Below are positions 3,796 to 35,736 of a stretch of DNA of 43,080 bases, in pieces. The notes beneath the pieces were generated by a model. The model was given only the letters and a program-made list of their open reading frames with translations. It did no database searches and was not told the DNA's origin. The position numbers were made by a program, and so were the translations under genes. Origin of the DNA: Actinomycetota bacterium (GTDB taxonomy: Bacteria > Actinomycetota > Acidimicrobiia > Spongiisociales > UBA5794); assembly GCA_013151445.1 (NCBI GenBank), contig JAADIG010000062.1, forward strand, positions 1 to 43,080, written 5' to 3'. Every line of letters begins with the position of its first letter. Within the stretch, counting starts at the first letter, position 1.

Positions 3796-3949
3796 CCCGA
3801 CATCGGAGAAGCGAAATCTGCCTCCCCGTACGATGGTTTGAGTGGCACGCGCGTGCCCCGAGCCACCGTACGGGTGCATGAAGGATGCAACCCGCATGCG
3901 GTTGCACCACAATGGGGTCAGAAGGCATCGGCTGGTATGGGCGGAGACA

Positions 3950-5650
3950 ATGCACGACGACCGAACAACCCAAGAAAACCGTCATCCCGTATATGCGTTG
4001 AGCGACGAACTGCTCGACGGGTTAGCGGAGCTCTACCCCGTGGCTGCGACCGCGGTAGGGATCAAGGGCCACGATCACGATTGGGGAGACCTCAGTCCGC
4101 GAGGCGTCGACAACGCGCAACGGACCCTGCGAGCTTGGTTGCGTCGAGTCGAAGCACTACCACCTGGCAACGACGAGTGGGACACGCTCGCAATCATGGT
4201 CGCTACCGACGCTCTCGAAATACCGATCCGTGAGATCGACGAGGGCAAACACTTTCGGGACCTCAACTCCATTGCCTCACCGTTCCAGGAGTTTCGAGAG
4301 ATCTTTGAACACATGCCCAAGGACTCGGTCGAGGCCTGGGAGAACATCGCTTCTCGACTGGTATCTCTGCCGGAGGCGCTTTCCTTCTACCAGGAAACCC
4401 TCGACGCGGGACGAAACCGTGGGGTGACGGTCGCGCTGCGCCAGGTCGAAAGTGTCATGGAGCAGGCGCGTGTCAGTGCATCGGATGATTCGCCGACGCT
4501 GCGAGTCGTGGAACAAGCTCGTGCGGCAGACCATGTCGACCCTGAACTTCTCGCCCGCATCCAAGGCGCTGCGACTGCTGGGCTAGAGGCATTTGCTGCT
4601 TTTGGCGAATGGCTCGCGACAACATATCGGCGCGCAGCAACGGCGGATGACGCCGTCGGCGAAGAACGCTACCTCAGCGAATCGCGTCAGTTTCTGGGAA
4701 CGACGATCGACCTCTTCGAGACCTACGCCTGGGGATGGCAACAAGTCGATGAACTTCGATCTCGAATGGAGTCACTCGCCACGACCATCACTGAGGAAGG
4801 TACCTTGGCCGCCGCACTGCACAGCCTCAACAACGACGCCAAGTGGGGAATCGCCCCGGACCATGCGTCATTCGTGACCGAGATGCAACGCCGGCTCGAC
4901 GACGCACTTGCGCGGCTCGACGGCGCCTACTTTGACGTGCCCGAATCGATCCGGACGGTCGATGTGAAGATCGCACCACCGGGCGGTTCCCTCGGTGCCT
5001 ACTACGTTGGCCCATCGGAAGATTTCTCCCGCCCCGGGAGCGTGTGGTGGTCGTTCAGCGGTGAAGCCGCGGTACCGCTGTGGGCAGAAGTAACCACTGC
5101 CTATCACGAGGGGTTCCCCGGCCACCATCTTCAGGTAGGGATGCAGTCCTCGTTCATGGAGCGACTGAGTCGTATCCACCGACTCTGGACCTGGCTACCC
5201 GGCATGGGAGAGGGCTGGGCACTGTATGCCGAGACGTTGATGGACGAACTGGGCTACTTCGATGAACCCGGCATCGAGTTCGGGTACCTGGCTTCACAGA
5301 TGCTGCGAGCGAGCCGCGTTGTCATAGACATCGGCATCCACCTCCGACTGACGATCCCCGACGACCAGCCACTGCTCGGAGGACAACCATGGTCATTCGA
5401 TGCTGCCGTTCAGTATCTCGAGCACTACGCGGGACTCGATACCGACTATGCCCAAAGCGAAGCAACGCGCTACTCCGGATGGCCGGGGCAGGCCATTGCC
5501 TACAAGGTTGGCGAGAGGGTGATCCTCGAACTTCGAGACGAGCTCCAGCGCCGCGACGGTGAGGACTTCGATCTCAAGGCCTTCCACCACAGACTGCTCG
5601 AAATAGGACCCGTGGGGATCGATACTGTTCGCTCACTCATGCTCGGCTGA
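3950..5650 (+). CDS. DUF885 family predicted zinc metallohydrolase
   Basis: The product (566 residues from the chosen start) belongs to DUF885, whose members look like gluzincin metallopeptidases. The key site is HEGFPGHH, with H386, E387, H392 and H393; a downstream GEGWALYAE segment about 40 residues later supplies the expected acidic ligand. The N-terminal half is helical and includes a long region around residues 150-330 with coiled-coil character. It has no signal peptide, so it should act in the cytoplasm, probably on peptides. The frame is open from a GTG at 3842, but I place the start at the ATG at 3950, which has GGAG four bases upstream and gives the usual family length. The 186 bp before it hold no other gene. 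Confidence 0.85.
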   Translation: MHDDRTTQENRHPVYALSDELLDGLAELYPVAATAVGIKGHDHDWGDLSPRGVDNAQRTLRAWLRRVEALPPGNDEWDTLAIMVATDALEIPIREIDEGKHFRDLNSIASPFQEFREIFEHMPKDSVEAWENIASRLVSLPEALSFYQETLDAGRNRGVTVALRQVESVMEQARVSASDDSPTLRVVEQARAADHVDPELLARIQGAATAGLEAFAAFGEWLATTYRRAATADDAVGEERYLSESRQFLGTTIDLFETYAWGWQQVDELRSRMESLATTITEEGTLAAALHSLNNDAKWGIAPDHASFVTEMQRRLDDALARLDGAYFDVPESIRTVDVKIAPPGGSLGAYYVGPSEDFSRPGSVWWSFSGEAAVPLWAEVTTAYHEGFPGHHLQVGMQSSFMERLSRIHRLWTWLPGMGEGWALYAETLMDELGYFDEPGIEFGYLASQMLRASRVVIDIGIHLRLTIPDDQPLLGGQPWSFDAAVQYLEHYAGLDTDYAQSEATRYSGWPGQAIAYKVGERVILELRDELQRRDGEDFDLKAFHHRLLEIGPVGIDTVRSLMLG

Positions 5651-5710
5651 TGCAACCATCGCGCTCGATACGGTGTTCATACTCCTGATGGCAACCCGAG
5701 ACTCGCACCC

Positions 5711-6256
5711 ATGACTCCGACACGCAACACGATCGCGCAAGCGCTGGCGACCGATCTCGACCGTGCATTCCCCCACCTCGTGACGCTGTACCAACGCGAA
5801 CTATTCAGCGGAATCCGAACGATGGTCCCCTCCCACTCCGACGCGGAGGACACCATGCAAGACGTCTTCCTCAAGGCCTATCAGTCGCTTACCGGATGGG
5901 GCAACGAACGACGGGCAAGTCTCTCCGTACGACCGTGGTTATGGATGATCGCAACGAACACATGCCGCAACCGAGCGCGCACCAAAGGACGACGACCCAC
6001 CGAAGTCGAGCTGCTGATCGGTGTCCAGGATCCCACAGAATCCCAACCGGAACCCAACCTCGAACTCGATGAATGGGCAGACCGGCTCGCAGCCCTCACC
6101 ATGCCAGCACGGACCGCAGTCGTGCTCCGCCACGTCGTCGGTCTACGGATCGATGAGATCGCCGAGATCGTCAAACGACCCGAAGGAACCGTCAAAGCAG
6201 ACATCCACCGCGGTCTCAAGAAACTTCGAACGATGCTTGAGGAGGTATCGCTGTGA
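5711..6256 (+). CDS. ECF-type RNA polymerase sigma factor
   Basis: A 181-residue sigma-70 family factor of the extracytoplasmic-function type. Region 2 lies around residues 20-90 (SDAEDTMQDVFLKAYQSL, then RPWLWMIATNTCRNRARTKG) and region 4 around 115-175 (LTMPARTAVVLRHVVGLRID, then EGTVKADIHRGLKKLR). It should direct RNA polymerase to a small regulon. No ribosome binding site is seen before the ATG and no other start is in frame. The stop codon overlaps the GTG start of the alkyltransferase gene by four bases, the position where ECF factors usually have their anti-sigma gene; no anti-sigma gene is present. Regulation by the coupled repair protein is an inference. Confidence 0.93.
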   Translation: MTPTRNTIAQALATDLDRAFPHLVTLYQRELFSGIRTMVPSHSDAEDTMQDVFLKAYQSLTGWGNERRASLSVRPWLWMIATNTCRNRARTKGRRPTEVELLIGVQDPTESQPEPNLELDEWADRLAALTMPARTAVVLRHVVGLRIDEIAEIVKRPEGTVKADIHRGLKKLRTMLEEVSL

Positions 6257-7032
6257 CATCACTCATCACAAACCAGCTCGAAAACCTTCAGACCGATGCG
6301 CCGCCCGCCACCATCGAACGGGTACTCGTCAGCACGGGTGTTATCGACTACTTCGCTCCCATGTCTTGGAAACACGGCACCCTCTGGGTGTCATGGAATG
6401 GCCACGGCGTGTCGTGTGTTGCCCCGGGTGATGATCCCGAGCCGTTCATCGACCGACACGCTGCCAAAGTTGGCCGGCACGTCGCACGATCCCGGGGTGT
6501 GCCGTTGCGGCTCAGGGATCTGATCTCCCAGACGATCAGCTCCGGTCGACTCGGTACATTGCGCGTCGACCTACGCGGCGTTGGTCCGTTCCAGCTCGAC
6601 GTGCTCACCACCATTCAGGATATCCCGCCCGGCGAACTCCGGACGTACGCTTGGGTCGCCGAACACATGGGCCGCCCGCGGGCAGTGCGGGCGGTCGGTA
6701 GCGCACTCAACCGCAACCCGGTACCGATCCTCATCCCTTGTCATCGGGTTGGCACGTCAGATGGGTCCGTTGGAAACTACGCATTCGGTGCAACGATGAA
6801 ACGTACCCTTCTCGCCGACGAGGGGCTTGATATGCAGACACTCGACGGTTACGTCGCGGCCGGATTTCGCTTCATGGGATCTGTCAACAACACCGTGTAC
6901 TGCTTCCCATCTTGTGTACGGGCGCGATCCATCCACCCAACGAACCGCGTCATGTTCAAGAGCCACGATGCGGCGAGCGATGCCGGATACCGACCGTGCA
7001 CAGTGTGTACGCCACACGGATCACCTTCCTAG
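6253..7032 (+). CDS. methylated-DNA-protein cysteine methyltransferase with C-terminal Ada zinc domain
   Basis: The 259-residue protein joins two DNA-alkylation repair parts. Residues 30-195 form an O6-alkylguanine-DNA alkyltransferase domain with the acceptor cysteine C163 in IPCHRVG and the helix-turn-helix arginine region RAVRAVGSALNRNP before it. Residues 200-255 match the Ada methylphosphotriester-sensing zinc domain: FRFMGSVNNTVYCFPSC, with C217, C221, C249 and C252 as zinc ligands; one of these would take up the methyl group. In E. coli Ada the zinc domain is N-terminal, so the order here is reversed and the AraC-type DNA-binding domain is missing. It starts with GTG inside the stop of the ECF sigma gene, so the two are co-translated. 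The likely role is repair plus sensing of alkylation. Confidence 0.9.
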   Translation: MTSLITNQLENLQTDAPPATIERVLVSTGVIDYFAPMSWKHGTLWVSWNGHGVSCVAPGDDPEPFIDRHAAKVGRHVARSRGVPLRLRDLISQTISSGRLGTLRVDLRGVGPFQLDVLTTIQDIPPGELRTYAWVAEHMGRPRAVRAVGSALNRNPVPILIPCHRVGTSDGSVGNYAFGATMKRTLLADEGLDMQTLDGYVAAGFRFMGSVNNTVYCFPSCVRARSIHPTNRVMFKSHDAASDAGYRPCTVCTPHGSPS

Positions 7033-7079: not shown

Positions 7080-8786
7080 ATGAGTTCAGAACAGTTGATC
7101 GAAACCATCCGTCGGTCCGTGATCGGTGACGATGACGTCGTTGATGGACCGTATGGACCGCGTCGGGTGACCTATGCCGACTACACAGCGTCTGGTCGAT
7201 CTCTCGGTTTCCTCGAGGACTACATCCGCGACGCGGTCCTCCCTCTCTATGCGAATACCCACACCGAATCATCGGGGACGGGGCTGCAAACGAGCCGTTT
7301 TCGTGAGGAGGCCAGAGCGGTCATTCGGGAGTGTGTTTCTGCAGATGAAAACCATGCGATTGTGTTCTGCGGGTCTGGGACAACCGCCGCGATCAATCGG
7401 CTCGTTGATATCCTCGGGATTCGGATCCCCAGCCAACTTGATGACGCCCATCACTTCTCCGACCAGTTATCACCCGAAAGTCGGCCGGTCGTGTTCATCG
7501 GTCCGTATGAGCACCACTCCAACGAACTCCCGTGGCGCGAATCCGTGGCCGACGTCATCCGAATATCCGAAAACGATGACGGACACATCGACCTCGCCCA
7601 CCTCGAAAGGGCACTCGTCGAGTACGCCGACCGCCCGCTCAAGATCGGCTCGTTCTCTGCTGCGTCAAACGTCACCGGCATCATCTCCGATGTTCGTTCG
7701 ATCACCATCCTGCTGCACAAACATAACGCCCTGTCTTTTTGGGATTTCGCTGCTGCCGCACCGTACGTTGACGTAGAAATGACGCCGCACGACACCAGCG
7801 ACGATGCCCCACTCAACTACAAGGATGCGGTGTTCATATCACCACACAAGTTCATCGGAGGCCCCGGCACACCGGGTCTCCTCATCGCCCGAAAGGAACT
7901 CTTCCGCAACCGTGTTCCGGCTCTTCCCGGCGGCGGTACCGTGACCTTCGTCAACTCGGAGGAGCATCGCTACGTCGACGACATCGAAAGCCGCGAGGAG
8001 GGTGGCACACCCGCAATCGTCGAATCGATTCGAGCTGGTCTGGTGTTCCAGCTCAAGGACGCCGTCGGTGTCGAAGCCATCCGCAACCATGAGGAAGATT
8101 TCATCAAGCGGGCCATCGCGTCCTGGTCGACGAACCCGAATATCCAGATCCTCGGCAACCCCGACGCCGACCGACTCTCCATAGTCTCGTTCATTGTCAG
8201 GTACGGGGATCGTTTCCTGCATCACAACTTCGTCGTTGCGGTGCTCAACGACCTCTTCGGTATCCAGTCGCGCGGGGGTTGCTCATGTGCGGGACCATAT
8301 GGACACACGTTGCTCGGTATCAATATCGAGGAATCAACGGAGTTCGAACACGAAATCTCCCTCGGATGCGAAGGAATCAAACCCGGTTGGGTGCGCGTCA
8401 ACTTCAACTATTTCCTGTCGGAAACGGTGTTCCAGTTCATCCTCGATGCGGTCCACCTGGTCGCAAACCGGTCGGCCGACCTGCTTCCCTACTACCGATT
8501 CAATGCCGAGTCGGGTCTGTGGCTTCACACCGCCCCGCTCGCAGACCCCCCACTCAGCCTCCACGACATCGACTACTCCTCCGGCGTCATGACCTACCGT
8601 CAGCGTCGTCGACAGGGTCATCAGTCCGAGTTGGCGGGATATCTCACCGAGGCCGTACGCATCCTCGATGAGGCGGCCGCCTCGTCACCCCCCACACCTC
8701 CTCCGCTCCACACAACCGAGGGATTCGAGGGACTCCGCTGGTTCCCGCTCCCCAAAGATGTGATCGGTATCAGCCGTGACTCCTAA
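7080..8786 (+). CDS. class V aminotransferase (cysteine-desulfurase-like PLP enzyme)
   Basis: The 568-residue protein has the fold-type I, class V layout: YADYTASGRSLGFLEDYI at the N-terminus, the GSGTTAAINRLVD PLP-phosphate loop near residue 97, the aspartate in SFWDFAAAAPYVDVEM, and the Schiff-base lysine K257 in SPHKFIGGPGTPG. A cysteine pair C401-S-C403 in RGGCSCAGPYGH sits where cysteine desulfurases carry the active cysteine loop. Related enzymes are usually about 400 residues; the extra 100-150 C-terminal residues (LLPYYRFNAESGLW onwards) belong to a longer subgroup with unknown substrate. It may be a desulfurase or another PLP lyase. It overlaps the following hydrolase gene by 11 bases, so both are made together. 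Confidence 0.88.
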   Translation: MSSEQLIETIRRSVIGDDDVVDGPYGPRRVTYADYTASGRSLGFLEDYIRDAVLPLYANTHTESSGTGLQTSRFREEARAVIRECVSADENHAIVFCGSGTTAAINRLVDILGIRIPSQLDDAHHFSDQLSPESRPVVFIGPYEHHSNELPWRESVADVIRISENDDGHIDLAHLERALVEYADRPLKIGSFSAASNVTGIISDVRSITILLHKHNALSFWDFAAAAPYVDVEMTPHDTSDDAPLNYKDAVFISPHKFIGGPGTPGLLIARKELFRNRVPALPGGGTVTFVNSEEHRYVDDIESREEGGTPAIVESIRAGLVFQLKDAVGVEAIRNHEEDFIKRAIASWSTNPNIQILGNPDADRLSIVSFIVRYGDRFLHHNFVVAVLNDLFGIQSRGGCSCAGPYGHTLLGINIEESTEFEHEISLGCEGIKPGWVRVNFNYFLSETVFQFILDAVHLVANRSADLLPYYRFNAESGLWLHTAPLADPPLSLHDIDYSSGVMTYRQRRRQGHQSELAGYLTEAVRILDEAAASSPPTPPPLHTTEGFEGLRWFPLPKDVIGISRDS

Positions 8787-35286: not shown

Positions 35287-35736
35287 ATGCAGCCTGTAAT
35301 GCTTACCGAACTCCACGCCAGGGTCAAAAAACATCTCCGCGAGAACGACGTGCGCTACTCCACGGGGCGGCAAAAGTTCATTGCGGCGCTGCATGCGGCT
35401 GGAGGTCCCCGTTCGGCGACACATCTGCACACGAGCGAGCTCGACGATGTACCGCTCTCGTCGTTATATCGCACACTCACAGTCCTGGAGAACGTGGGTG
35501 TACTCGAACGCACCCATGACGGCGACGGTGTTGCCATGTTCGAACTCGGCGAATGGCTGCTGGGCCATCACCATCACCTCATTTGCACCTCCTGTGACAT
35601 CGTCACCGACATCGACCTTGGCAACGACCTTGAGAATGCGGTCGCCGAAATCAGTGCAACCGTCGCAGCATCGCACGGTTTCACGATGACGGGTCACACA
35701 CTCGATGTTCTCGGCCTCTGCGAGGACTGCGGGTGA
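35287..35736 (+). CDS. zur: zinc uptake regulator, Fur family
   Basis: A 149-residue Fur-type repressor: winged helix in residues 10-85 (RYSTGRQKFIAALHAAGGP, SSLYRTLTVLENVGVLER), then the HHHHLICTSC metal site and dimer domain, with the structural zinc cysteines C100, C103, C145 and C148. The neighbours (zinc ATPase, binding protein and permease) point to Zur rather than Fur or PerR. Starts possible at 35287 or at the fifth codon (35299); I keep the first. The gene is probably autoregulated through the Zur box and overlaps znuC by four bases. Confidence 0.92.
   Translation: MQPVMLTELHARVKKHLRENDVRYSTGRQKFIAALHAAGGPRSATHLHTSELDDVPLSSLYRTLTVLENVGVLERTHDGDGVAMFELGEWLLGHHHHLICTSCDIVTDIDLGNDLENAVAEISATVAASHGFTMTGHTLDVLGLCEDCG

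Follow-up and report, generated by a model that had tools for sequence, protein, structure and literature searches.

An extracytoplasmic function (ECF) sigma factor gene of an Acidimicrobiia bacterium is followed, in an operon of its own, by the gene of an O6-alkylguanine-DNA alkyltransferase (AGT) with an Ada-type zinc domain, and both the pair and an ECF-type promoter in front of it are conserved across genomes. This conserved pair and its promoter point to an alkylation-damage response in which a sigma factor would take the role of the classical Ada activator. The stretch of DNA analyzed (here, the window) comprises the 43,080 nucleotides of contig JAADIG010000062.1, assembly GCA_013151445.1. 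The association of ECF sigma factors with methyltransferases is already reported and is not new (PMC8999054), while the promoter, the regulon, and the dispensability of the zinc domain appear to be new when judged against the sentence on ECF122 in that paper.

The sigma factor and the alkyltransferase

(i) Sigma factor. The first gene codes for a protein of 181 aa with matches to Sigma70_r2 (5.1e-12, residues 23 to 95) and Sigma70_r4_2 (5.4e-11, residues 122 to 172) in Pfam and a TIGR02937 match above the cut-off. It contains only sigma regions 2 and 4 within a length near 180 aa, as is usual in ECF (group 4) sigma factors, and lacks a regulatory extension. An ECF sigma open reading frame (ORF) had been placed at this same position in the original prediction, and the Pfam families confirm it.

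(ii) Alkyltransferase. The second gene starts with a GTG that overlaps the sigma stop codon as GTGA and codes for a protein of 259 aa, in which Pfam identified the AGT domain (DNA_binding_1, 1.4e-28, residues 112 to 191) followed by the zinc domain (Ada_Zn_binding, 5.3e-09, residues 206 to 254). We found no Pfam match in this protein to the AraC family (HTH_18) or to an anti-sigma domain (ASD or ZAS), and the arrangement therefore differs from the zinc-AraC-AGT order of the Ada proteins of the EcAda type. The protein has the AGT fold and the PCHRV cysteine (C163) of the AGT/Ogt proteins, together with the C-x3-C and C-x2-C pattern of the Ada zinc domain (C217, C221, C249, and C252), the first cysteine of which is a putative methyl acceptor. 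These five cysteines are invariant in an alignment of 22 full-length zinc-bearing homologs. The AlphaFold2 model (mean pLDDT of 96.1 and pTM of 0.89) has as its best PDB match 1sfe, the C-terminal domain of E. coli Ada, and no other AGT-type match occurs in the genome (3.07 Mb, 98% complete). The domains and cysteines agree with the original prediction, which had described two recognized families, with the AGT before the zinc domain and the AraC part absent, and had numbered the five cysteines correctly.

The pair is flanked upstream by a DUF885 gene (positions 3842 to 5650), which adjoins it in about 12 loci of the family, and downstream by a gene for a cysteine-desulfurase-like class V aminotransferase (positions 7080 to 8786), which does so in about 20.

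TABLE 1 Features of the sigma-AGT operon (positions in the window)
Feature	Position	Strand	Basis
-35 element TGCAAC, ECF-type promoter of the operon	5651..5656	+	PWM score 24.1
-10 element GGTGTTC, 15-base spacer to TGCAAC	5672..5678	+	Motif conserved before homologous sigma genes
ECF (group 4) sigma factor, 181 aa, without regulatory extension	5711..6256	+	Pfam, TIGR02937
O6-alkylguanine-DNA alkyltransferase with C-terminal Ada-type zinc domain, 259 aa	6253..7032	+	Pfam, AlphaFold2, PDB match
N-terminal extension, residues 1 to 31, candidate sigma-binding element	6253..6345	+	Coverage in paired proteins; putative role
Codon of C163, O6-alkylguanine acceptor cysteine (PCHRV)	6739..6741	+	Invariant in 92 aligned paired AGTs
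Ada-type zinc domain, residues 206 to 254	6868..7014	+	Pfam; cysteines C217, C221, C249, C252

Conservation of the pair

AGT-type matches at an E value of 1e-10 were present in 55 of 60 related genomes, and each of the 30 best loci, which were fetched first, has an ECF gene immediately upstream in the same orientation. We then counted distinct proteins away from contig ends, in loci drawn from approximately 400 genomes of the phylum and from GTDB contigs (the contig loci of close relatives were recovered by an alignment search, as a single-protein search gave none). An ECF gene was directly upstream of 82 of the 83 proteins with the AGT-then-zinc order, versus none of the 22 classical Ada proteins, in which zinc comes first and AGT last. 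The AGT-only proteins had it in 17 of 40 cases, a figure that is not a census, as the loci were selected for their resemblance to the paired protein. The sampled AGT-then-zinc proteins belong to Acidimicrobiia, other Actinomycetota, Chloroflexota, and Dormiibacterota, and the hosts of the pair include Thermobifida fusca, two Nonomuraea, and Actinokineospora. A 4-base overlap (ATGA or GTGA) between the sigma stop and the AGT start is found in the large majority of loci; such overlaps are common to many sigma/anti-sigma pairs. We saw no further anti-sigma gene next to the sigma and AGT genes or between them, which is in line with the earlier proposal that the second gene takes the place of the anti-sigma gene. 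The pairing is thus far above chance and no accident, and the search for the same pair in other genomes, suggested with the original prediction, ended in its favor.

More distant pairs of an ECF gene and an AGT-only gene were found outside the main clade (L042, L087, L090, L123, L088, and L096). The promoter described below, in the form scanned, is absent from them, and they are perhaps further ECF-alkyltransferase systems.

Promoter of the operon

A motif of the form TGCAAC-N15-GGKGTTC is conserved before the sigma gene, and its copy in the window (positions 5651 to 5678) is the only strong site there in a scan with a position weight matrix (PWM). In the form TGMAAC-N16-GKKTT, it occurs in 78 of 101 regions upstream of homologous sigma genes, whereas shuffled sequences gave 0.1 on average and never more than 1, and the length of the spacer is nearly always one and the same in these occurrences. 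An AAC in the -35 element is typical of ECF promoters. As this conserved ECF-type promoter precedes the gene of an ECF sigma factor, autoregulation of the operon is very probable. The start codon lies 8 to 12 bases after the -10 element in many loci, which suggests leaderless messages.

A weaker site at 35655 was rejected, as it falls inside an ORF (35287 to 35736) and has a poor -10 element. A leaderless 8-codon frame begins approximately 10 bases after the -10 element in the window (5688 to 5714), with a stop that overlaps the sigma start (ATGA); it is absent from the relatives looked at, and we took it as a chance frame. One locus of the Thermobifida fusca genome (L328, from 1501) nearly repeats the sigma promoter together with the opening bases of the sigma gene, with no intact sigma frame behind them; it could be a decayed duplicate or code for a short 92-aa product. 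One relative (genome G030) has a second sigma gene, preceded by a promoter copy of its own, at the end of contig 29, where the sequence breaks off (L231).

Genes sharing the promoter in relatives

Throughout 60 tallied relative genomes, the motif had 114 occurrences, versus 32 for the reversed control. We opened 20 strict matches that did not belong to the operon itself, and in 8 of them the gene directly behind the motif codes for an EamA-family transporter, with a probability by chance of about 3e-25 under generous assumptions (20 EamA genes per genome and 60 bases upstream of each). One of the same 20 matches stands before an S26 peptidase-HhH-GPD (AlkA-type) fusion and another before a second sigma copy. 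More EamA genes with the motif came from homolog searches and from a Chloroflexota genome, and the order sigma-AGT-EamA is found in four Chloroflexota loci (L057, L061, L062, and L090) and in one of another actinobacterial family (L152, family f31). An HhH-GPD glycosylase gene directly follows the AGT gene in L063.

The fusion joins an S26 signal-peptidase-like domain to an HhH-GPD glycosylase, and the promoter copy in front of it is perfect (L235, positions 178 to 1083, genome G037). AlkA as a conserved member of the regulon was rejected, as among 30 homologs the motif precedes the AlkA-type gene only in this genome. In Thermobifida fusca a Major Facilitator Superfamily gene lies some 400 bases after the AGT gene (L066, 6162 to 7418), which would fit the theme of export.

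In the genome of the window itself, the promoter was not found beyond the operon: the copy in the window is the sole exact match to TGCAACN{14,16}GGKGTTS in 3.07 Mb, and the EamA and HhH-GPD genes of this genome lack the motif. The shared promoter motif that the original prediction had suggested looking for before repair genes exists, and in relatives it also precedes EamA exporter genes and, in one case, an AlkA-type gene.

Loss of the zinc domain and the N-terminal extension

The zinc domain has been lost in a clade of eight loci of the window's family, which keep the sigma and AGT genes and are nested, with starred support in the tree, among zinc-bearing relatives. Another loss or losses took place in the paired loci of Pseudonocardiaceae. 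The promoter persists in zinc-less loci (L031 and L033, for example), and C163 is kept in the zinc-less paired lineages. As the domain was lost while sigma, promoter, and C163 stayed, these comparisons mark it as a dispensable part of the system, and its role as an essential sensor was ruled out. The weight that the original prediction had given to it is hence not sustained.

In view of these losses, any sensing of damage by the partner would more likely lie with the AGT core and its N-terminal extension. The extension is made of two predicted helices ahead of the AGT (residues 2 to 11 and 18 to 27 in the AlphaFold2 model) with the pattern LxxLxxxAPxxLxxxVLxxTG, and most paired proteins extend over it, while the classical Ada proteins and nearly all unpaired AGTs start after it. 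The single unpaired AGT-zinc protein (L083) has neither the extension nor a sigma neighbor. Some outlying paired AGTs, of the AGT-only type, also lack the extension.

Comparison with known systems

In the ECF122 group, 6-O-methylguanine DNA methyltransferases are conserved neighbors and the mechanism is uncharacterized (PMC8999054, citing the 2021 ECF reclassification). The window pair has the same neighborhood, a methyltransferase gene adjoining an ECF sigma gene without a known anti-sigma factor, and the likeness rests on this neighborhood; the sentence on ECF122 in that paper names no zinc domain, promoter, regulon, or mechanism. We found no experimental study of such an ECF-AGT pair in the literature searched.

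With E. coli Ada (PMC4437013), the window protein shares the AGT domain with its PCHRV cysteine and the four-Cys zinc domain, and in some lineages an AlkA-type gene appears to be coregulated. It differs in the reversed domain order, in the missing AraC part, in the use of an ECF sigma factor, and in that its zinc domain is dispensable. Ada proteins are known in diverse domain organizations, and Cada of Caulobacter is another case of Ada modules rewired for a methylation-damage response; Cada2, in contrast, is described as a methylation-dependent DNA-binding activator, and the part of the source that describes it mentions no ECF sigma partner (PMC10957082). The RshA-SigH and ChrR-RpoE pairs resemble the window pair in that the partner gene comes second in an operon with autoregulation and translational coupling and the signal is cytoplasmic, but the window AGT has no ASD or ZAS domain and would be a suicidal DNA repair enzyme.

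Possible mechanism

The explanation that we prefer, to which we give only slightly less than an even chance, is an autoregulated alkylation-damage switch in which the AGT would be a soluble anti-sigma factor that alkylation releases from sigma. Starting at TGCAAC-N15-GGKGTTC, the ECF sigma factor would drive transcription of the operon that encodes it; its targets in relatives would further include the genes of EamA-family exporters and, in single cases, of an AlkA-type glycosylase. Coupled translation would supply the AGT directly after sigma, and the AGT would hold sigma, probably via the two-helix N-terminal extension and the AGT core. Alkylated DNA would consume the AGT by irreversible transfer to C163 and, in proteins that have the zinc domain, also to C217, and the spent protein would release sigma, so that the promoter fires and fresh AGT is made. 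Once the lesions are gone, free AGT would shut the switch again. An autoregulatory promoter needs a brake, and the second gene sits at the usual position of an anti-sigma gene. An enzyme that its own substrate consumes lends itself naturally to measuring damage, and alkylated AGT is destabilized in other organisms.

We infer the binding, the inhibition, and the release upon alkylation; the observations that favor such a switch are the pairing in 82 of 83 cases, the overlap, the promoter, which is very probably autoregulatory, its sharing with EamA and AlkA-type genes, the loss of zinc with C163 kept, an extension tied to paired proteins, and a sigma factor with no extension of its own. A joint sigma-AGT model, obtained from a natural pair joined by stop read-through (L009), had a mean pLDDT of 91.3 and a pTM of 0.63, which falls short of a confident complex. 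Against the switch stand the lack of an ASD or ZAS domain in the AGT, the restriction of the promoter to the operon in this genome, and the paired AGTs that lack the extension. That the role of anti-sigma factor falls to the suicidal repair enzyme itself, with its consumption freeing the ECF sigma to produce the enzyme and, in relatives, the EamA exporter and the AlkA-type glycosylase, is a possibility that we put forward with considerable doubt.

The AGT could instead be only an output, with sigma switched on by another signal or by its expression alone and the AGT as its main target, without feedback. The single predicted target in the window's genome, the operon itself, would fit this, and many ECF groups lack known anti-sigma partners (PMC8999054), but a near-perfect pairing over several phyla, a 4-base overlap, and an extension of the paired AGTs exceed what coexpression needs, and self-activation without a brake would be unstable; we regard this explanation as unlikely. 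The same pairing, promoter, and overlap also fit a coactivator, that is, a methylated AGT-zinc protein that aids the ECF sigma in initiating transcription from the shared promoter. A precedent exists in E. coli: Ada there makes contact with the RNA polymerase sigma subunit and interacts with it at the ada and aidB promoters (PMC4437013). The parts of Ada that act on DNA or RNA polymerase are, however, either missing here (AraC) or dispensable (zinc), which makes a coactivator quite improbable.

Implications

The adaptive response to alkylation is known via DNA-binding activators of the Ada type, and the pair would represent a version based on a sigma factor and spread over several phyla. With a cultured host, Thermobifida fusca, and a defined promoter, the mechanism is directly testable. 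If the switch is true, it would provide the first function for an ECF group with an uncharacterized mechanism, and it would link alkylation repair with export of the EamA type. Such an adaptive response would then read the extent of damage from how far its own repair protein has been depleted, and it would combine repair with export.
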